DNA from: Lentimicrobiaceae bacterium
Lineage (GTDB): Bacteria; Bacteroidota; Bacteroidia; Bacteroidales; F082
DNA: 35,039 bases
NCBI GenBank assembly: GCA_015061335.1
Contig: SUWT01000020.1
Location: 1 to 35,039 of the forward strand
Direction: 5' to 3'
In this document: positions 3,855 to 19,997 of the stretch, piece after piece
How positions within the stretch are numbered: position 1 is the first letter of the stretch
How the letters are laid out: every line of letters starts with the position of its first letter
Position numbers and translations under genes: made by a program
Notes under the pieces: model-generated
Seen by the model: only the letters and a program-made list of their open reading frames with translations
Database searches by the model: none
Told to the model about the DNA's origin: nothing

Positions 3855-5915
3855 TTATCCAACATTGCTTCCAGGAGCAACAGGCTGACTTGGTGTGACA
3901 ACGACCAATCTTCCGTCTTTGTCTTCTGCCGATAATATCATGCCTTCGCTGGTTACGCCTTTCAGCTTGCGAGGCTCGAAGTTAGCGATGAAACAAACTT
4001 GCTTGCCGACCAATTCTTCCGGATTCGGATAATATTTCGCGATTCCGGAAACGATGGTACGTTTGTTCATGCCGTCGTCAATCAGGAATTGTAATAATTT
4101 GTCAGCCTTCGGGACTTTTGTACATTCCAAAACAGTACCGACTCTGATGTCCATCTTGCCGAACTCATCGATATTGGTGTTAGGCTTGATTGGATTTGGA
4201 GCCCAAGCGTTCAATTCATTCTGTTTCTTGGTGTCTTCCAATTTCTTGATCTGAGCAGCGACTGTCTCATCTTCAACTTTGGTGAATAACAATTCTACTT
4301 CGCCTATCTGACTTTCTTCTTTCAACAAAACAGTCTCCTTAGCCTGATTCCAGCCGTTTACTTCAAGACCAATCATAGCTTGTAATTTCTTAGCTGAGAA
4401 TGGCAAGAACGGTTCTGACAAGATAGCGAGTTTTGCGACAATCTGCAATGAAACGGCGAGGACTGTCTTCACTCTCTCTGGATCTGTCTTGAATTGTTTC
4501 CAAGGCTCGTTTTCTGTAAGATAACGGTTGCCGAGACGAGCGAGGTTCATCAATTCTGACAAGGCTTCACGGAATTTATAAGTGTCGAGAAGATGAGCGA
4601 TCTTATCAGGATATTGATTCATTTCTTCGATAGCGGCTTGGTCTTTCTCGTTGAGATTTGCCATAGCAGGAACCTTACCTTCAAAATATTTATGAGTCAA
4701 GACCAAAGTGCGGTTTACGAAGTTGCCGAAGATGGCGAGCAACTCATTATTGTTTCTGTCTTGATAATCTTTCCATGTGAAGTTGTTGTCTTTTGTCTCA
4801 GGAGCGTTAGCTGTCAAAGCGTAACGTAGAACGTCTTGTTTGCCTGGGAATTCTTCGAGATATTCGTGCAACCACACAGCCCAGTTGCGTGATGTGGAAA
4901 TCTTATCGTTTTCTAAGTTGAGGAATTCGTTGGCAGGAACGTTTTCCGGGACGATATAATCGCCGTAAGCTTTAAGCATGCAAGGGAATATGATGCAGTG
5001 GAACACGATGTTATCTTTTCCTATGAAGTGAACGAGTTTTGTGTCTTCATCTTTCCACCATTTTTCCCAGTCGGTTCCATTTTCTCTGCAGTGTTCTATT
5101 GTATTTGATATATAACCTATAGGAGCGTCGAACCATACGTAGAGCACTTTGCCGTCGGCTTCTTCAAGCGGGACAGGCACGCCCCAGTCGAGGTCGCGGG
5201 TGACGGCGCGAGGCTGAAGACCGTTGTCTAACCAACTCTTAACCTGACCATAGACATTAGGTTTCCATTCTTTATGACCTTCGATGATCCAGTCGCGAAG
5301 CCATTGTTCGTATTGGTCTAAAGGCAGATACCAGTGTTTGGTAGCTTTCTTGACGAGTTTGGCGCCGCTGAGAGCTGACTGAGGATTTATCAATTCCTCC
5401 GGGCTCATTGAAGAACCGCATTTCTCGCATTGGTCGCCGTAAGCGTGGTCGTTACCACATTTAGGACAAGTACCTATGATATAACGGTCTGATAAGAATT
5501 TGTTACGTTCCGGATCGAAGAACTGTTCAGTTTCTCTTTCGATGAATTTGCCGTCTTCATAGAGTTTCTTAAAGAAAGCGGCAGCGGTTTCGTGATGAGT
5601 CTTTGAAGAAGTACGAGAATAGATGTCGTAGCTTATTCCGAGTTTTTGGAAAGAATCTTTGATGATATTATGGTATCTATCGACGATATCTTGTGGGGTA
5701 CAGCCCTCTTTTTCAGCTTTGATGGTGATAGGCACGCCGTGTTCATCGGAGCCGCCGACAAACAAGACCTCTTCACCTTTCATTCTGAGGTAACGGACGT
5801 AAGTATCTGCCGGGATATAAACGCCGGCTAAGTGACCAATATGTACAGGACCATTAGCGTAAGGTAATGCTGTCGTTACCGTGTAACGTTTGAAATGTTT
5901 GTCGTTATTTTCCAT
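3855..5915 (-). CDS. metG: Methionyl-tRNA synthetase
   Basis: The 686-residue enzyme charges tRNA(Met) with methionine using ATP. The class I signature is VHIGH at residues 24-28, and the KMSKS loop appears as KISTS at 338-342. The zinc knuckle is CPKC...CEKC (C150, C153, C163, C166). The anticodon-binding helical domain follows, and the last ~100 residues are a Trbp111/EMAP-II-like OB-fold ([24 protein letters not shown]), giving the long dimeric form of MetG. I chose the ATG at 5915 ([10 protein letters not shown]...). A longer frame would begin with TTG at 5948, but that codon lies inside the promoter's -7 box (5946-5953), so it cannot be translated from that promoter. It lies downstream of radA on the same strand, with its own promoter in the gap. 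Confidence 0.97.
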
Positions 5916-5945
5916 TTTTGTTTCAATTTTAGAATTTTTAAGGTG

Positions 5946-5953
5946 CAAAGATA
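5946..5953 (-). promoter_or_regulatory. -7 box TATCTTTG for metG
   Basis: An exact TAnnTTTG on the minus strand, 30 bases before the ATG at 5915. It implies a leader of about 20-25 bases and decides the metG start codon against the upstream in-frame TTG. Confidence 0.65.
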
Positions 5954-7417: not shown

Positions 7418-7425
7418 TATTTTTG
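7418..7425 (+). promoter_or_regulatory. -7 box TATTTTTG for the SusC/SusD/PNGase F operon
   Basis: A TAnnTTTG match 36 bases before the SusC ATG at 7462. It is the only good candidate upstream of the three-gene operon. A CTTG at 7391-7394 could be a weak -33 box but is slightly too far (23-base spacer). No adjacent regulator gene, such as an ECF sigma/anti-sigma pair, a SusR or a hybrid two-component system, is present. Confidence 0.5.
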
Positions 7426-7461
7426 TACAAATTTTTTGTAGAAAATTAAAATGTGTTAAAT

Positions 7462-10400
7462 ATGAGGAAAGTTTACTTTTTCTTAATCTTCCTCTTAGGG
7501 GTTAGTATATCCCTAAGGGCGCAAGACATTAATGTTTCCGGTATTGTAACATCATCGGAGGATGGTTATGGATTACCGGGTGTTACTATTCTAGTTAAGG
7601 GTACAAGTAATGGTACCGTCACAGGTCTTGACGGAGATTATACCATTGTAGCCAATGCACACGATACATTGACATTCTCTTACGTCGGTTATCAGACTCA
7701 GGACATAGCCGTCGGCGGAAGAAACAAAATTGATGTCGTAATGAGTACTGACGCTATGATGTTGGATAACGTTGTTGTCACAGCCTTAGGTATCAAACGT
7801 CAGAAAAGAGAGTTAGGTTATGCCACTGAAGACATCAGCGGTGAGGACTTGACTCGTTCTGGTAGCGACAACGTAATCAACTCATTGAGCGGACGTGCTG
7901 CCGGTGTTCAGATCATCACCAGCGATGGTGTCGCAGGAGGATCTTCTCGTATCGTCATACGCGGCAACAACAGTATCTTTGGTGACAACCAGCCTCTTAT
8001 TGTTGTTGACGGAGTTCCAATGACTAACGAGGGCGGTGTCACTGGATGGGGCGGCGGTCAAGACTGGGGTACTGCTCTGAACAATATCAACCAAGAAGAT
8101 ATTGAAGACCTCAACATTTTGAAAGGTCCTACCGCAGCGGCTCTTTATGGCTCAAGAGGCGGTAACGGTGTTGTCCTTATCACAACAAAGAAAGGTAAGA
8201 AACAGCAAGGTTTAGGTATCAATTTCTCATCAACATACAAATTGACAACACCTTATGGTTATCGTGATGTACAAAACAAATACGGTGCAGGTGGTCCTGT
8301 ATCTTTCATGACACCGACATTAACACAAGATGCGAATGGAAATTACATCTACAACGGCAACTATCAGTCGGACAACGGTCCTGAAGGTGAACCGACAAAC
8401 ACCACATTCGGTTATTACGGCGGAGCAGTATCATGGGGTCCTGTCATGGACGGAACCAATATGATCTGGTGGGACAGTTCATATAGAGACTATTCACCAC
8501 AACCGGACAACCTAAGCATGTTGTACAAAAACGCTCATTCGTTCATCAACAACATCTCTTTCCAAAATGCCGGCGACTTCGGTTCTATCAGAGTCTCTGT
8601 CACCGACGACCGCTCCGATGCTATCATCGACAACTGTAACTTAAGTCAGACTACATTCAACGTCGGTTCCGTATTGAACGTATCTGAAAAGATAAAAGCC
8701 GATGTCTCTTTTACATATTTCGATTATCACCGTCTTAACTCTCCTATACTCGGTGAATCATACAGCAACTTCAACAAAGGTCTTCTCTACAGCTGGCCTA
8801 GAAGTTGGCAAGGCATAGAGTCGATGGAATATGAACAAGCCGATGGAACAATGACAGAATGGGGCAACTATCCTTTCCAATATATCAATGCCAACACATT
8901 CTGGAGTTTCTATAACAACAACACGACTCTCGACCGTGACAAAGCTTACGGTTCCTTACGTCTCACATACGACATCACCGATTGGTTGACATTGGCCGGT
9001 AAAGCTGCTCTCGACTTCAGTCTAGACCAATATGAAACAAGAAACAAAGCCACTACTGTCGATGGTATGACAGGAGGTTATTACAAACAGAATCTTTCAA
9101 GAGACTACACTCTTGATGCTGACTTCCTCTTGACAGCTCATAAAGATTATATCTTCGGAACATTAATCAACGCACGTCTCTCATTCGGTGGAGAACGTTA
9201 TTACAGAAACATGTATGGCATGTGGGCTAGCACAGGCGAATGGGCATTCCCTGATCTATACACATTCTACAATTACCTCAGCGGAGGTTCAAATCCTATC
9301 ACAACAAACATGCTCCCGGGAGAGTCTCGTTACGAAAAACAAGTTAACTCATTATACGGTTTCTTGAACTTATCATATAGAAACTATCTCTTCTTGGACT
9401 TGACAGGAAGAAACGACTGGTCATCAACATTGCCAATGGACAACAATAGTTATTTCTATCCATCCGCAACATTGAGTTTCATTCTGACAGAAGCATTCAA
9501 AATTAACTGGGGTCCTATCAGTTTCTTGAAGATAAGAGGTTCCGCCGCTATGACAGCTAGCGATGACAATCCTTACCAATTAGACTTCACATACAATACA
9601 GGTTCTTTCGGCGGACAGTTAATGTCAACTCTCCCGACACAAGTCCCTCCTTTGCAATTGAAACCACAACGTCAACGTTCCTACGAAATCGGTATTGACT
9701 TCGGTTTATGGGATAAAGTCAACATGGACTTCACATATTACGACATCTACTCATGGGATCAGATCTTAGCTTCTCCAATGGCGGTGTCATCTGGTTCAAG
9801 CAGCGCACGTATCAACACCGGTGTCGTTACAAACAAAGGTATAGAAGCTATCATCAATTATAATGTATTTCAAAAACCTAACAGCTATCTCCAAATCGGT
9901 TTGAACTTTGCTAGAAACACCAACCGCATCGTTGACTTAGGAGGTGCCGACATGTATATCTTGTCAGAAGTCTGGGGATCTAACGGTCCTGCTATAGCTG
10001 TTCAAGAAGGTGAAGAATATGGAACCATATACGGTTGGGATTACGTCTATACTATGGAAACAGCCGACGGAACAGTTGTTGGTCCTTTCTATGATAGCAA
10101 CGGCAATCCTCTTCCTCTTATCAACGAGGATGGTACCGAATATCTTAAAACTAACCAACGTGTTCCTGTAGGCAACTGCGCTCCTTTGGTAACAGGCGGT
10201 CTTAACCTCAAATACAACTACAAAAACTTCTCGTTATATGCTTTGATAGATGCAAAATTAGGAGGACAAATATACTGCGGTTCATACGTCATCGCAATGC
10301 AAACAGGTCAAAGTCCTGAAACCATGTATGAACGTGAAGGTAACGGACTCCCTCTTTATGATGAAGAAGGCAATTTCTTAGGTAATTACGGTGTCGTACT

Positions 10401-10779
10401 TCCTGGTGTTTACGTAGATCCTGAAACAGGCGTGGCAACAGAAAACGAAGAGGTAGTACATTATTATTACAATTATATGCCTAACTTCGGAGGATGGGGT
10501 AATTACCTCTCAACACCTGGTATCTTGAACAACACTTGGATCAAGATGCGTGAGATAACACTCAGCTATAACTTCCCAAGCAGAATCATCGAAAAACTTA
10601 AAGTGTTCCAAAACGCTTCCATCTCTGTGACTGGCCGCGACTTGTTCTATTTCTACAAATCATTGCCAGATAATATCAACCCTGAAGGAACTCTAGGAAC
10701 AGGTAACTCTCAAGGTCTCGAATACGGTTCATTCCCAATGACACGCTCATTTATATTCTCACTCAGATTCGGTCTTTAA
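7462..10779 (+). CDS. SusC/RagA-family TonB-dependent outer-membrane transporter
   Basis: The 1105-residue product begins with a signal peptide (cleavage likely after A20, RA-Q). A carboxypeptidase-regulatory-like domain follows (ISGIV-type start VSGIVTSSEDGYGLPGVTILVKG, about 24-100), then the SusC-type TonB-box region DNVVVTALGIKRQKR near 105-120. The plug domain has SLSGRAAGVQI and PLIVVDGVPM. A long beta-barrel ends in the terminal strand SFIFSLRFGL. It imports oligosaccharides or glycopeptides handed over by the SusD-like lid, powered by TonB. The frame is open back to a GTG at 7453, but ATG 7462 gives a better signal peptide (MRKVYFF). SusD follows after 20 bases. The neighbouring PNGase F-like gene suggests the substrate is an N-glycan; that is inference from context, because SusC sequence alone does not reveal specificity. 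Confidence 0.95.
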   Translation: MRKVYFFLIFLLGVSISLRAQDINVSGIVTSSEDGYGLPGVTILVKGTSNGTVTGLDGDYTIVANAHDTLTFSYVGYQTQDIAVGGRNKIDVVMSTDAMMLDNVVVTALGIKRQKRELGYATEDISGEDLTRSGSDNVINSLSGRAAGVQIITSDGVAGGSSRIVIRGNNSIFGDNQPLIVVDGVPMTNEGGVTGWGGGQDWGTALNNINQEDIEDLNILKGPTAAALYGSRGGNGVVLITTKKGKKQQGLGINFSSTYKLTTPYGYRDVQNKYGAGGPVSFMTPTLTQDANGNYIYNGNYQSDNGPEGEPTNTTFGYYGGAVSWGPVMDGTNMIWWDSSYRDYSPQPDNLSMLYKNAHSFINNISFQNAGDFGSIRVSVTDDRSDAIIDNCNLSQTTFNVGSVLNVSEKIKADVSFTYFDYHRLNSPILGESYSNFNKGLLYSWPRSWQGIESMEYEQADGTMTEWGNYPFQYINANTFWSFYNNNTTLDRDKAYGSLRLTYDITDWLTLAGKAALDFSLDQYETRNKATTVDGMTGGYYKQNLSRDYTLDADFLLTAHKDYIFGTLINARLSFGGERYYRNMYGMWASTGEWAFPDLYTFYNYLSGGSNPITTNMLPGESRYEKQVNSLYGFLNLSYRNYLFLDLTGRNDWSSTLPMDNNSYFYPSATLSFILTEAFKINWGPISFLKIRGSAAMTASDDNPYQLDFTYNTGSFGGQLMSTLPTQVPPLQLKPQRQRSYEIGIDFGLWDKVNMDFTYYDIYSWDQILASPMAVSSGSSSARINTGVVTNKGIEAIINYNVFQKPNSYLQIGLNFARNTNRIVDLGGADMYILSEVWGSNGPAIAVQEGEEYGTIYGWDYVYTMETADGTVVGPFYDSNGNPLPLINEDGTEYLKTNQRVPVGNCAPLVTGGLNLKYNYKNFSLYALIDAKLGGQIYCGSYVIAMQTGQSPETMYEREGNGLPLYDEEGNFLGNYGVVLPGVYVDPETGVATENEEVVHYYYNYMPNFGGWGNYLSTPGILNNTWIKMREITLSYNFPSRIIEKLKVFQNASISVTGRDLFYFYKSLPDNINPEGTLGTGNSQGLEYGSFPMTRSFIFSLRFGL

Positions 10780-10786
10780 TTAATGG

Positions 10787-10792
10787 AAGGAG
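10787..10792 (+). promoter_or_regulatory. AAGGAG ribosome-binding site before the SusD-like gene
   Basis: A clear Shine-Dalgarno-like AAGGAG 7 bases before the ATG at 10800. Most other genes in the window lack such a site, as is common in Bacteroidota. Confidence 0.55.
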
Positions 10793-10799
10793 AAAAATC

Positions 10800-12509
10800 A
10801 TGAAAAAGAACATATTAAATTTCAAAAAAATATTGCTTGCATCAGCAGCATCACTCATTCTAGTTTTCGGTTCTTGTACCAAAGGTTTTGAAGAAATGAA
10901 TAAAAACCCTATGAGCCCGACAGGTACTGACATAGGACCTCTCTTCAACGGAGTCGTCAGCAGCCTCTGCTGGACTTGGGATGAACAGTTTTATCTCAAC
11001 AACGAGATCTTCTATCCTGAGTCAGAACTCGGTGCTTTGATCTCAGAATCATGGGGTAACTATAGCATCGGTGTCGATGCCGTATGGAACAATTATTATC
11101 TGGCTTTGGCTAACATACATGATATCGACAAACGTCTCGATGAGATGTGTACCTCAACAGGCGACAACGAAATCGATGATAAAGTAAGAGCTCAACTTAC
11201 AGTCATAGAAGCATACAAAACTTTCAAAGTGACAGATATGTTCGGCGACATCCCTTATTCAGAAGCCGGCTATATCTGGTACGATACAGAAGCTAACAGA
11301 AAACCTAAATACGATACTCAAGAATCTATCTACAAGACATTATTGGAAGAATTAATATGGGCAAGAAACATCCTGAATAGCGGTTCTAATATAACTGAAC
11401 TCGGTAACCAATATTATTCTCTAGGAGCATACGATGTGTTGTATAAAAACGATTATCTCAAATGGGCTAAGATCGCCAACTCTTTAATCTTACGTCATGG
11501 CATGAGAATGTATCATAAAGATCCAACTTTCGCTGAACCTATCTTGCAAGAAGCATTCAACGAACCTGTCATCGATGATTATATGTATAACGGCAACGGA
11601 GCTTTCGCTTTATGGCCTATAAACGTAAGTCAGTTCGGCGACCAAGGATGGTCATTCCGTGAACATAAGAATCTAAGAATGGGTGAGACCGTCTTCGCAC
11701 AGATGTCAAAAGAAACAGACTCTATCGACAATGCTATCTTCGACCCAAGAGTTTTCGTATTCTTCGATACCAACAATAAGACTGCCGACTATCCTGAAGG
11801 CGCATGGAGAGCTTTCCCACAAATAAGAGATGAAAACACTCCTATTGAAGGTGGCTCGCCTTATTCTTCAGCACGCGACAAAAATTATGCCTTCAAGGGC
11901 CCTGCCTGTTTGTATTCACCATTCAACTTCTATCTCATCCGAGACCACGTTTTCGTACCTCAAATCATGATGAGCCCCGCTGAGGTTTGCTTCATAAAAG
12001 CTGAAATGATGGTTAAAGGAATCGTACCAGGCGGACTCGGAATGGCAGTAGAAGAACTCATAAGAAATGGTATCAAGAACTCTTATTATATGTGGTTACA
12101 ACTTCCAATATACGGAACAGACGCTACATATAAATATATATACCCGGAACTTCAAGCTATTCTGGATGGCGGAGACATATGGTCTATCTCTGATTCTTAC
12201 GCATCTCAAGTCATGAATGAGATGATGTATCTCAACTACGACTTCATGTATGATGAAACAGCTTACCTGGAATTCATCTACCAACAACGCTGGTTGGATT
12301 TGTTCCGCCAACCTAATGAAGCATGGAGCCTCGCCAGACGTACATTCATGACACCTACTACCATAGATCACCAAAAACTCGTAACATACAGATTACCTTA
12401 TCCTCAATCAGAAGTGACTTATAACTATGACAATTATAATGAACAAATCAGAAAGATGAGTCATGGCGATACAAGAGAAACCAAGGTATGGTGGATGGAA
12501 GAAAATTAA
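10800..12509 (+). CDS. SusD/RagB-like surface glycan-binding lipoprotein
   Basis: The 569-residue product has a lipoprotein signal peptide ending FGSC with C26 as the lipidated residue. The following TKGFEEMNKNP is a hallmark of the SusD-like_2 branch. The TPR-rich helical SusD fold is recognisable in WNNYYLALANIHDIDKRLDE, AYKTFKVTDMFGDIPYSEA, YLKWAKIANSLILRHGMRM and the C-terminal EFIYQQRWLDLFRQPNEAWSLARRT. SusD proteins sit as a hinged lid on the SusC barrel and capture the substrate. It lies between the SusC-like gene (20 bases upstream) and the PNGase F-like gene (20 bases downstream), so the three genes are almost certainly one transcript. The family is clear; the ligand is inferred from the neighbouring enzyme. 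Confidence 0.93.
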   Translation: MKKNILNFKKILLASAASLILVFGSCTKGFEEMNKNPMSPTGTDIGPLFNGVVSSLCWTWDEQFYLNNEIFYPESELGALISESWGNYSIGVDAVWNNYYLALANIHDIDKRLDEMCTSTGDNEIDDKVRAQLTVIEAYKTFKVTDMFGDIPYSEAGYIWYDTEANRKPKYDTQESIYKTLLEELIWARNILNSGSNITELGNQYYSLGAYDVLYKNDYLKWAKIANSLILRHGMRMYHKDPTFAEPILQEAFNEPVIDDYMYNGNGAFALWPINVSQFGDQGWSFREHKNLRMGETVFAQMSKETDSIDNAIFDPRVFVFFDTNNKTADYPEGAWRAFPQIRDENTPIEGGSPYSSARDKNYAFKGPACLYSPFNFYLIRDHVFVPQIMMSPAEVCFIKAEMMVKGIVPGGLGMAVEELIRNGIKNSYYMWLQLPIYGTDATYKYIYPELQAILDGGDIWSISDSYASQVMNEMMYLNYDFMYDETAYLEFIYQQRWLDLFRQPNEAWSLARRTFMTPTTIDHQKLVTYRLPYPQSEVTYNYDNYNEQIRKMSHGDTRETKVWWMEEN

Positions 12510-12529
12510 TTAACTTAATAATTACCAAA

Positions 12530-15088
12530 ATGAAAAGATTATTTTTAACATTATCATTATTGTTGTGTTTAACGATGGTTAAAGCACAAGTGGAATACCT
12601 TATTGACTTTAACAACTACACTACAGGTACTCAATGTCTTAACGGACAAGACAACTGGGTGACACATTATCAAACTGCAGGTTCATCACAAGACTTCGAC
12701 GTTGATTACAATTGCGATGAGTTGTTATCACCAGATGAAAGTATAGCAATCTTCTACCCTTACGGAGGTCCTGGCGTTGGAAGAACCGCAACACGTAAAG
12801 CTACCGGCAATTTCGATTTTAACTTCCAGAATGGAGGTATCATCGATCTGGAATTCGACATCTTTCCTGCATGGTGGGGCGACTATGTTGGTGTCGGCTA
12901 CGATGCCGACGGTGATGGCAACATTCTTCAAGGTATGACAGATGGCGATGGCGGCGTATTTCTCCGTGTTGCCGGCAGCGAAAACGATAATCATCCCAAT
13001 ATCATGCTCCCAGACGGAACCAATATCCTCATCTCAAACTTCAGACAAGAAGGCTGGGCCAGATATAAAATGTCATTCGACTTCTCCGCCTACGACGGAG
13101 CTGGATCTTTGACAGTTTTCGTTAAAACCTTCGATAACACATGGAGCGAATGGACACAGTTAGCTGAAGCTACAGAACTTAATATGGGCATGACTCCAGG
13201 TTCAGGTGACATGCGCGACTATGAAGTGTGGGACGGCATCTTCTTCCACTGCCAAGGTGGAACCGGAGGATTCGACAATCTCCTCGTTCGCCAAATGCCT
13301 GAAGGTAATATGCAATATATCAATATGGTTGATATCCCAAAACAACTGACTATCAACGAACCTTATACCTTAGAAGCTACCGCAACATCTGGCCTCCCTG
13401 TATCTTTCGAAATGATTAGCGGCCCTGCTACTATCGAAGGTAATACCTTGACATTGACAGGTGAAACCGGTACTGTTTCTTTGAAAGCTACACAAGCAGG
13501 TAACGATGAATGGCTTCCCGCTCCTGATGTCGTAAAAACTTTCGAGGTTATCGACCCTATGGCTTACTCAACAGATATTACAATACGTCGTCCTTACGAC
13601 CAAACCAACGTTTATCTTCCTGAGCTAAGACCTATAGTCCTTAACGTCAGCCTACAGGTAGAACATGCCGATGCCCTTCATTTTGAAGAAGTTAAATGTT
13701 CTATCAACGGTGAAGACTCCTATCTTATTACAGACTATCCTGACGACCCTGAAAATGGCTATTTCTACTGCTATTGGATGCCTGCTCAATATGGTGAACA
13801 TAATATGACCGTCTCCGTTACAACAACAGGTGGTAATGTCACAACAAAATCTTCATCATTCACCATCACAAACGAATATGACGACTTAAACGTTGTTACT
13901 CTCAACGGTGACCTCATCTGCACACCTTCTATTCACTCTGCTGTTGGAGAATATGTTATGCCAACTCACGTAGGCGCATTCAATATGATTACAGCTCATT
14001 ACGACCACAATTGTGTTAACGGCAACTGCGATACTTACGACCGTGTCGGTGGTGTTAAAGTTAGAAATTATAGAGGTGAATGGATGGAACTCTTCCGTTA
14101 TATCACACCTTTCGGCGTTCAATGTGAAGATAATTTAGATGTTACAGACTACTCTTCTGTACTTCAGGGATTGGTAGAATTCGAACTATATTTTGAATCT
14201 TGGAATGGCGATGGCTTCAATCCTATACTCACTTTCGAGATGACAAAAGGTGCTCCTGAATATCTCTACTCTAACGTTGACGAAATTTGGTTTGACATTT
14301 ACTCATTCGGTGATTATGCCAACCAACAACCTGTCCCTGACGTTGATTATACCTTCTCACCAAATACCCAAGCAGCTAAATTAAAACTCATCACTACAGG
14401 CCACAACTGGAGCAGTTATTCAAATGGCGGTAATTCTTATAACACAGGTAATGCCGCTGAGTTCTATGAAGCTACTCACGGAGTTAAAATCAACGACCAA
14501 GCTGAATTCGAACAACACTTATGGAGAACATGTAACCCTAACCCTTCTGGATGCCAACCTCAAAACGGCACTTGGACATACAACCGCTCCGGATGGTGCC
14601 CAGGAAGTATCGCAATGGTCTGGGATTTCGACCTCAGCGAACACATCAACGATGGCTGCATCAATATCTTCTACGAATTAGATCCTACTTATATTGACGA
14701 ATGCCATCCTAACTATCCTGACTGTATCGATGGTCAAAATTCATGTCCTCAATGCGACATGCCTGATAATCCAGTTCTAAGAGTATCCGGTAAAGTAGTT
14801 AGTTATAGCAATAACGTAAATGTTTTGACAGACGCTCCTGCTATCATCGACCAAGCCACATTTAACGTTGATATTTATCCTAACCCCGCTCAACATAATC
14901 TTAACTTCTCATCAGATTATGAAAATGGCAAATTGAGCGTTCTTATCCTTAATGCACAAGGTCAAGAAGTTAAGAAATTTGCTTTCAGCGGAAGCAGAAC
15001 AATAGACGTATCAGAACTCCCAAGCGGTGTTTACTTCGTCAGAATATTAGGTGGGACAATGATAACAAAGAAGATCGTTATCAAATAA
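12530..15088 (+). CDS. T9SS-exported multidomain peptide:N-glycosidase F-like protein
   Basis: PNGase F hydrolyses the bond between asparagine and the first GlcNAc of N-glycans. The 852-residue product has a signal peptide (1-20, MVKA-Q), a ~240-residue jelly-roll-like domain, two Ig-like modules (about 265-345 and 345-450), the two-domain PNGase F core (about 455-760) and a T9SS sorting domain from about 776 (YPNP at 783-786, DVSELPSGVYFVRI, KKIVIK). The three catalytic acids known from Elizabethkingia PNGase F (D60, E118, E206) correspond to D504 in CDTYDRVGGVKV, E556 in YFESW and E644 in NAAEFYEATH. The last spacing is 88 residues in both. NRSGWCPG and CNPNPSGCQPQ are further core signatures. 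The start at 12530 gives a clean signal peptide; an in-frame ATG at 12488 lies inside the SusD gene. It closes the SusCD operon. Confidence 0.9.
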   Translation: MKRLFLTLSLLLCLTMVKAQVEYLIDFNNYTTGTQCLNGQDNWVTHYQTAGSSQDFDVDYNCDELLSPDESIAIFYPYGGPGVGRTATRKATGNFDFNFQNGGIIDLEFDIFPAWWGDYVGVGYDADGDGNILQGMTDGDGGVFLRVAGSENDNHPNIMLPDGTNILISNFRQEGWARYKMSFDFSAYDGAGSLTVFVKTFDNTWSEWTQLAEATELNMGMTPGSGDMRDYEVWDGIFFHCQGGTGGFDNLLVRQMPEGNMQYINMVDIPKQLTINEPYTLEATATSGLPVSFEMISGPATIEGNTLTLTGETGTVSLKATQAGNDEWLPAPDVVKTFEVIDPMAYSTDITIRRPYDQTNVYLPELRPIVLNVSLQVEHADALHFEEVKCSINGEDSYLITDYPDDPENGYFYCYWMPAQYGEHNMTVSVTTTGGNVTTKSSSFTITNEYDDLNVVTLNGDLICTPSIHSAVGEYVMPTHVGAFNMITAHYDHNCVNGNCDTYDRVGGVKVRNYRGEWMELFRYITPFGVQCEDNLDVTDYSSVLQGLVEFELYFESWNGDGFNPILTFEMTKGAPEYLYSNVDEIWFDIYSFGDYANQQPVPDVDYTFSPNTQAAKLKLITTGHNWSSYSNGGNSYNTGNAAEFYEATHGVKINDQAEFEQHLWRTCNPNPSGCQPQNGTWTYNRSGWCPGSIAMVWDFDLSEHINDGCINIFYELDPTYIDECHPNYPDCIDGQNSCPQCDMPDNPVLRVSGKVVSYSNNVNVLTDAPAIIDQATFNVDIYPNPAQHNLNFSSDYENGKLSVLILNAQGQEVKKFAFSGSRTIDVSELPSGVYFVRILGGTMITKKIVIK

Positions 15089-15109
15089 TCATCTAAATAT
15101 TATCAATAA

Positions 15110-15147
15110 AAAAAATCCCGGGCTCAACAATTAGCCCGGGATTTTTT
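15110..15147. terminator. Strong bidirectional intrinsic terminator
   Basis: A perfect 10-bp stem ATCCCGGGCT/AGCCCGGGAT (15115-15124 with 15133-15142) and an 8-base loop, flanked by A and T runs that extend the pairing. It ends the SusC/SusD/PNGase F operon on the plus strand and also sits just past the C69 dipeptidase stop on the minus strand. Confidence 0.92.
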
Positions 15148-18848: not shown

Positions 18849-19034
18849 CTCTTAATTATTATTAACTTATTATTTCTTTTTTCCCATTTTATTCCCTATT
18901 TTTTAACACTTTTTATGACAAAAGTTAAAAATAGTTAAAAATCAACAACTTATAAAAATATTTTGTACTTTTACCTGCAAATATACAATTATTTTGCGAA
19001 TTTTATATGCCAAAAACTCAAAAACATTATTGTT

Positions 19035-19997
19035 ATGAAGTCAAATAAACTTACCTTATTAATAACGGCTTTTCTATTATGCCATTATTCTTTTTGCAAT
19101 AACACCAAACTTTTCACTAATAATCACATCCATAAAAGTGAAAAATTCTCCGATAGTATTATTATAAACGAAATATTGTTTAATCCAATCTCTCCTGGCG
19201 TAGATTATATCGAACTGTATAATAACTCCATTAACGAAATCGACATTTGTAATTACTCTATTGGAAGAATCAGAGAATCATTTCCCAATCCTCCCGACAC
19301 CTCTCTTAAAGTAATTTGCTCAGAATCATACATATTGCCTCCTAAGTCTTATGTATTACTCTCAACAAATAGCGAAATGGTCAGTTATCAGTATGTTTGT
19401 TCCTCCGATAATTTTCTTGAGATGAAATCCTTCCCTTCTCTCCCAAACGACGAGGCTATGGTAATACTCTGCAACCAACATAAAGATATTATTGACGAGA
19501 TGTATTACTCCGATAAAATGCACCACGATCTTCTTATAGAAACTAAGGGCGTCGCTTTAGAACGTATCTCCTTCGACAATTCTTCACTAGATCGAAACAA
19601 TTGGACATCAGCATCATACACTACAAATTACGGTACCCCTGGATACAGAAATTCCATGGCCGTAGATCTTCTTGAAGAAAAAATAATGAATGAAATAAAT
19701 ATTATTCCTGAGATATTTTCTCCTAACGGAGATGGTCGTGATGATATTTGTAGTATCAATTATATGTTTGATAAAAACGGATATAATATGAATATTAAGA
19801 TCTTTAACTCTAAAGGCATTTTTGTCAAAAACCTGCTTAACAATAGTTTAATAGATAATAAAGGTAGCATAACATGGAATGGAGGCGATGACAATAACCG
19901 CATCCTTGATCCGGGTATCTACATCATTCAAGCCGAGATCTTCGACTTGAACGGATATGTGAAAAGAATGAGGAAAGTAGTAGTGATAGCACCTTAA
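19035..19997 (+). CDS. Secreted lamin-tail-domain protein with gliding-motility-type C-terminus
   Basis: The 320-residue product has a signal-like N-terminus (hydrophobic 5-19, then C21). A lamin tail domain (LTD) spans about 41-190, seen in IIINEILFNP, DYIELYNNS and the YILPPKSYVLLST strand, with the typical late NYGTPGYRNS. The C-terminal ~100 residues (from about 223) match the gliding-motility-associated or FlgD-like Ig repeat found at the ends of exported Bacteroidota proteins: IFSPNGDGRDD, MNIKIFNSKGIFVKNL, WNGGDDNNRILDPGIYII. This suggests export to the surface, perhaps by the type IX system (type B-like signal). I chose ATG 19035 because upstream codons lack a signal peptide. LTDs occur in adhesins and nucleases, but no catalytic domain is visible. 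The gene stands alone; stop codons of this gene and the BASS gene are only 4 bases apart. Confidence 0.75.
   Translation: MKSNKLTLLITAFLLCHYSFCNNTKLFTNNHIHKSEKFSDSIIINEILFNPISPGVDYIELYNNSINEIDICNYSIGRIRESFPNPPDTSLKVICSESYILPPKSYVLLSTNSEMVSYQYVCSSDNFLEMKSFPSLPNDEAMVILCNQHKDIIDEMYYSDKMHHDLLIETKGVALERISFDNSSLDRNNWTSASYTTNYGTPGYRNSMAVDLLEEKIMNEINIIPEIFSPNGDGRDDICSINYMFDKNGYNMNIKIFNSKGIFVKNLLNNSLIDNKGSITWNGGDDNNRILDPGIYIIQAEIFDLNGYVKRMRKVVVIAP

Follow-up and report, generated by a model that had tools for sequence, protein, structure and literature searches.

The Gpd complex of Capnocytophaga canimorsus is described in PMC3128124 as a system that releases N-glycans at the cell surface, with GpdC as the presumed importer and exo-glycosidases in the periplasm. 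The locus studied here lies in a window of 35,039 nucleotides, which is the whole stretch of DNA that was analyzed. It resembles the Gpd system in that surface release of N-glycans, a TonB-dependent transporter and internal trimming can be proposed from its genes. The two differ in the cutting enzyme and in the number of components: the Gpd complex uses the endo-beta-GlcNAcase GpdG together with several surface lipoproteins, whereas the unit described here consists of three genes, one of which encodes a PNGase with a sorting tail for the type IX secretion system (T9SS).

For Bacteroides sartorii, Crouch et al. (2022) describe a PNGase gene with a susC/D pair as its sole neighbours (PMC9522356); the two loci are likened here by the gene arrangement described there, not by sequence relationship. 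According to the same source, PNGase genes of Bacteroides lie near susC/D genes and encode enzymes of groups 1 and 2, whereas the PNGase of the window is a multidomain protein with a T9SS tail. A further difference is that the unit in the window follows a family-wide gene order and contains the single SusC of its genome. Bacteroides genomes carry many polysaccharide utilization loci (PULs). A literature search covering titles and the beginnings of abstracts did not find such a unit beyond PMC9522356. Judged by that description, a PNGase with lone susC/D neighbours is already known. Every component of the unit belongs to a named family of known function, and what is new is the tight and minimal pairing.

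The three-gene unit and its products

Three co-directional genes and their flanking signals were located in the window:

7418..7425, forward strand: Bacteroidetes-type promoter box (TAnnTTTG), 44 bases upstream of the possible susC start ATG 7462
7453..10779, forward strand: SusC/RagA-type TonB-dependent outer membrane transporter (TIGR04056, 558 bits)
10800..12509, forward strand: SusD-like lid lipoprotein (SusD-like_2) of 569 amino acids (PF12771, 144 bits)
12530..15088, forward strand: PNGase F-like enzyme of 852 amino acids, identified by profile, phmmer and fold comparison
15110..15147, no strand assigned: strong hairpin of 15 pairs that resembles an intrinsic terminator and could serve both sides (T runs on both strands)

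Both gaps between the genes measure 20 bases if the PNGase gene starts at 12530. An ATG at 12488 is also possible, but 12530 is preferred as the start of a signal peptide. The compact trio described in the initial annotation is confirmed by the coordinates of the open reading frames (ORFs). That annotation also placed the genes between a single promoter and one strong terminator. A TAnnTTTG box, which we take to be the -7 promoter motif of Bacteroidetes, is located approximately 27-65 bases 5' of susC in 17 of 17 upstream regions (the window and loci L051-L066), compared with 1.9 expected and a maximum of seven in 300 shuffles. A scan for sigma-70 promoters gave 26 sites in the region vs. 27.7 in shuffles and thus no excess. 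The hairpin was found where a terminator had been predicted, between the operon and a convergent C69 peptidase gene, with T runs on both strands; terminator-like sites across the region showed no excess (4 vs. 6.8 by chance). The C69 peptidase gene was considered as a member of the unit and rejected, as none of the other fetched loci contained a match to it.

The absence of glycoside hydrolases noted initially holds for the operon and for the 21 window ORFs that went through a Pfam scan (the ORF list of the window contains 35, several of them antisense). In a classical PUL, SusCD is accompanied by hydrolases or lyases encoded nearby; the operon is therefore not a PUL of this kind. Elsewhere in the window, the product of positions 18963-19997 combines a lamin tail domain with a T9SS tail of the CHU_C type, the latter scoring at its cut-off.

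SusC comprises 1108 amino acids when counted from the GTG at 7453, with the ATG at 7462 as another possible start, and its TIGR04056 score lies well over the cut-off of 368 bits. The adjacent gene belongs to the SusD family (cut-off of PF12771, 27 bits), and its product carries a lipobox-like FGSC, read from the sequence. These scores bear out both identities, and by them the pair is classed as a SusCD importer. In the genome of origin (assembly of 2.58 Mb, 92% complete), where all 17 candidates were scored, the SusC of the window is the only TIGR04056 match over the cut-off; 14 others remained below 92 bits.

The PNGase F-like protein is composed of a signal peptide, a strand-rich N-terminal region (residues ~20-460), a PNGase F domain (~470-775) and a T9SS sorting tail of type A (~780-852). 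N-glycanase_C (PF09113) reached 46 bits against a cut-off of 25, and the tail reached 56 bits with PF18962 (cut-off 27) and was also matched by TIGR04183. The N-glycanase_N model scored 13.5 bits, under its cut-off of 22.4; since this region aligns to PNGase F in phmmer, the low score reflects a limit of the model and not a missing domain. Both sequence and fold are similar to PNGase F: phmmer against the PDB aligned residues 483-708 of an 866-residue frame with PNGase F (3pms, E 4e-26), and the best PDB matches of the predicted structure in Foldseek were PNGase F with a TM of 0.71 by target length, the model having a mean pLDDT of only 70. The N-terminal region of the predicted structure gave no clear assignment.

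With PNGase F of Elizabethkingia meningoseptica (1pgs, 1pnf, 3pms) the enzyme shares the fold and the residues D60, R61, E118, W120, E206, R248 and W251, whereas identity in the fold alignment is only ~24% and the window enzyme adds the N-terminal region of ~460 residues and the T9SS tail. The residue numbers of the active site are those which we assume for PNGase F, E118 excepted. The number of E118 follows PMC9522356. The active-site residues D60, E206 and R248 as well as the supporting R61, E118 and W120 are present, and every residue checked is intact in the window copy. D60, E206, R248 and W251 are invariant in 95 of 95 aligned family proteins of at least 600 amino acids, a set with at least one duplicate (L014 and L055 represent one gene), and two further columns are conserved in 94 and 92 of them. 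Family members have E, Q, S, M, G, I, V or D at position 118, and some copies carry H or Q at position 61. Crouch et al. tie residue 118 to the tolerance of core alpha-1,3-fucose: E118 of PNGase F is described as blocking it, and a glycine in the type II enzyme as admitting it (PMC9522356). Fold and conserved active site suggest that the window PNGase hydrolyzes the GlcNAc-Asn bond, and its description as a PNGase F-like protein with a type IX sorting domain was upheld.

In L072 (G116:C4), L075, L080, L081, L082 and L090, PNGase paralogues stand in tandem, as many as four together, and those in L072, L080, L081 and L090 lie behind SusCD. Several of the extra copies have H at position 61 and N, K or P at position 57, with D60 and E206 retained.

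Gene order and occurrence among relatives

Matches to the window PNGase at E 1e-20 or better were found in 96 of 173 genomes of the family. Within the genus, a co-directional PNGase gene follows 60 of 71 SusC genes at a distance of at most 8 kb. By coordinates, this was the case for 53 SusC genes (at most 2.3 kb for 49 of those); the regions of the remaining 18 were fetched, and seven of them had a PNGase directly behind SusD. The 11 SusC genes without PNGase alongside comprise one unrelated second pair, three at a contig end and seven with no PNGase next to the SusCD pair. The genomes of these last seven carry the PNGase elsewhere, and the seven pairs count against the cut-and-import reading given below.

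Beyond the genus, a search gave 26 matches in 22 genomes. Twenty loci from 19 genomes, selected by PNGase alone, were fetched; the set leaves out G033 and G040, whose hits are fragmentary, and two Saprospiraceae pieces covered as L018. SusD lies 5' of the PNGase in all 20 loci, directly in 17 and with one intervening gene in three, and SusC is visible before SusD in 19, a contig end cutting off the last. The search for the three-gene order, proposed with the initial annotation as a check, returned a PNGase downstream of most SusC genes of the genus, and SusD ahead of the PNGase in every fetched locus of other genera. Position 118 varies in these loci, and positions 57 and 120 are G and L, respectively, in 16 of the 20. 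In L170, the one locus scanned of the three most distant ones, both the PNGase and the product of the additional gene have a T9SS tail and a Laminin_G_3 domain, which is lectin-like. On the Saprospiraceae contig, PNGase pieces in two open frames are followed by a SusC that is 44% identical over the visible part; as a Pfam scan of the first PNGase piece gave no family, this locus is assigned by tblastn similarity only. A related PNGase gene adjoins a GH92 gene in L010. No other glycan-active gene recurs among the named neighbours, which make up the minority of the neighbouring ORFs.

SusC over the cut-off is present in 70 of 99 genus genomes and in exactly one copy in 69, a count based on up to seven scored candidates per genome and therefore firmest for the genome of origin. 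The exception, G044, has a second SusCD pair with another SusD family. SusC and window-type PNGase (up to five candidates per genome scored) occur together in 70 genomes; the PNGase occurs without SusC in five, SusC without the PNGase in none, and neither in 24. A search for N-glycanase_C with all candidates scored found no window-type copy in these 24 genomes either. The five PNGase-only genomes are 71-93% complete, and SusC may have been missed in them through assembly gaps. Fisher's test on this table (p 2e-18) ignores relatedness and was set aside. In a quick MetG tree built from 90 of the 99 genomes, PNGase changes three times and SusC six times. The PNGase changes fall on a clade of 19 genomes and on two single genomes, G059 (73% complete) and G084 (89% complete, on a long branch). 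In the three independent pairs differing in PNGase, SusC follows in the same direction (sign test p 0.25, a test that cannot reach significance with three pairs). With three tree changes, the co-occurrence is suggestive. MetG of the window (encoded at 3855-5948) is 94-98% identical to its counterparts in eight other genomes; all other near-full-length copies of the genus are at most 85% identical to it, and the tree has a long branch here.

The tie to SusC concerns the window-type family. That PNGases in general track SusC was rejected, because N-glycanase_C is found in 95 of the 99 genus genomes. Seventy-two of the 99 have a high-scoring copy (156 bits or more, the class resembling the PNGase-II-like gene of the genome of origin); among the 24 genomes that lack the unit, 20 retain such a gene while having no SusC. 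A PNGase therefore does not need SusCD, which was counted against the cut-and-import reading. GH20 copies average 3.2 in genomes with the window-type PNGase vs. 2.1 in those without (p 1e-5, relatedness ignored), which was counted in favour of that reading, and GH92 copies do not differ between the two groups (2.3 vs. 2.1, p 0.17), which was counted against it. In four genomes without the unit (G048:C17, G073:C24, G077:C54 and G081:C28), high-scoring N-glycanase_C matches and GH20 matches converge at a distance of ~0.8 kb.

Probable trimming enzymes and the proposed cargo of the transporter

The genes are best explained as a compact surface cut-and-import unit for N-glycoproteins, which may come from the host or the diet as the initial annotation proposed, and in which SusCD takes up the freed N-glycan, a reading to which we assign a probability of about 0.6. 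The sorting tail and the presence of SprA/Sov suggest that the PNGase is exported to the cell surface by T9SS. There it would cut the GlcNAc-Asn bond, as its fold and active site predict, and free the whole N-glycan. In the subsequent steps, proposed from the protein families and their tight linkage, SusD would capture the freed glycan and SusC would carry it into the periplasm with TonB energy, where GH20, GH92, GH2 and GH95 enzymes encoded elsewhere may trim it. A whole N-glycan has a mass of ~2 kDa. According to PMC7782687, the molecules held by one SusCD pair may be as large as ~2.5 kDa each. The size thus fits import.

The genome of origin encodes SprA/Sov (SprA_N, 578 bits), by which alone the presence of T9SS was judged; together with the sorting domain, this makes the PNGase a T9SS type A cargo. 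The trimming enzymes, which the initial annotation had expected outside the operon, were found as two GH92, five GH20, a GH2 and a GH95. The GH2, GH20 and GH95 genes lie within ~11 kb of one contig, and GH20 adjoins GH95. An organism without glycan-degrading enzymes, which would use its PNGase for peptides alone, was thus rejected. The six glycosidases examined (both GH92, two of five GH20, GH2 and GH95) have no T9SS tail and start with lipoprotein-like or other signal-like stretches, as read by eye. This fits import before trimming, although the enzymes may also be surface lipoproteins. Searches for GH18 and GH130 found neither in the genome. As no GH130 was found, breakdown of the N-glycan core lacks an explanation in the import-and-trim scheme, and this was counted against it. 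On contig C128 of this genome, an M64 (IgA-type) peptidase gene and one of the two GH92 genes lie ~7 kb apart (L092:1-1052 and 8081-10411).

Besides the window copy, two N-glycanase_C genes are present in this genome. One is PNGase-II-like, with PNGF-II (4r4z, E 1e-123) as its best solved match; the stretch GAFIGNYD is common to both, and the enzyme is probably of the type in which G replaces E118. The other is a paralogue, 54% identical to the window PNGase, directly 3' of a gene for an M28 peptidase with a T9SS tail. This M28-PNGase pair (L004:7956-12367), conserved in 8 of 15 further fetched loci, has Q at position 118 of the PNGase and is preceded by genes that we take to be rpiB-like and LdhFe-like.

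The M28 association bears on a less likely but serious alternative, namely that the unit serves peptide or glycopeptide scavenging: the PNGase would deglycosylate substrates for secreted peptidases and SusCD would import peptides as RagAB does, the glycan being a by-product. The paralogue follows the secreted M28 peptidase gene in nine loci (the genome of origin and 8 of 15 further fetched loci), with Q at position 118 in all nine copies, and in L066 the order is SusC-SusD-PNGase-M28. An S9 prolyl oligopeptidase gene is found downstream in L163, and in L090 a gene resembling the Porphyromonas-type peptidylarginine deiminase (591-2591, with a T9SS tail) is convergent and one ORF away from a SusCD-PNGase-PNGase array. 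The window itself has the convergent C69 peptidase gene. However, among the 40 loci L051-L090 only one had a match to M28, and the 20 from other genera had none, counts obtained by BLAST against proteins of the genome of origin, which would miss unrelated peptidases; the C69 gene had no match in any other fetched locus. The transporter shares a likeness with the peptide importers BT2263-2264 and RagAB, in that BT2264 is the solved structure to which SusC is closest in sequence (259 bits). To our knowledge, no PNGase partner exists for BT2263-2264 or RagAB. The BT2264 complex is reported with bound peptide (PMC7782687, PMC11817032). The SusD-like protein points away from peptides: it reaches only 28.8 bits with BT2263, and its best solved relatives are glycan-binding or uncharacterized SusD homologues.

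These same relatives would also fit an active PNGase whose SusCD serves another glycan, or a chitin-like oligosaccharide that the enzyme exposes. The SusD-like protein aligns over nearly its full length with the chitin-binding AqSusD (8j0p, 67 bits), and its top scores are to an uncharacterized SusD homologue and to glucan-binding proteins. This explanation appears improbable, as the linkage of SusCD to the window-type PNGase is nearly exclusive in the genus and no further glycan-active gene recurs among the named neighbours. That the protein uses a PNGase F-like fold for another reaction or for binding is very improbable; the N-glycanase_N score under its cut-off, the variation at position 118, H or Q at 61 in some copies and the G at 57 and L at 120 in most loci of other genera might suggest it, but D60 and E206 are kept in 95 of 95 family proteins and the window copy retains all residues that were checked.

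Implications for a probable use of N-glycoproteins

The surprising feature of the proposed N-glycan cut-and-import unit is that the single SusCD pair of the genome is the one linked to a PNGase. In gut Bacteroidales, SusCD pairs are usually numerous, and each is accompanied by its own hydrolases. We suggest tentatively, at somewhat less than even odds, that the genus has at most one SusCD pair (with one exception), that this pair is devoted to the products of a surface PNGase, that N-glycoproteins are the sole class of large nutrients imported in this way, and that the genes of the unit are retained or lost together. With its one SusCD pair tied to a single amidase, such a lineage would represent a minimal, naturally isolated system for studying SusCD import after PNGase action, and the family would offer multi-domain PNGases that vary naturally at residue 118, which Crouch et al. 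connect with core alpha-1,3-fucose tolerance. Several near relatives are metagenome-assembled genomes from herbivore guts, and the lineage would mark a recurrent route for the use of N-glycoproteins in this habitat.
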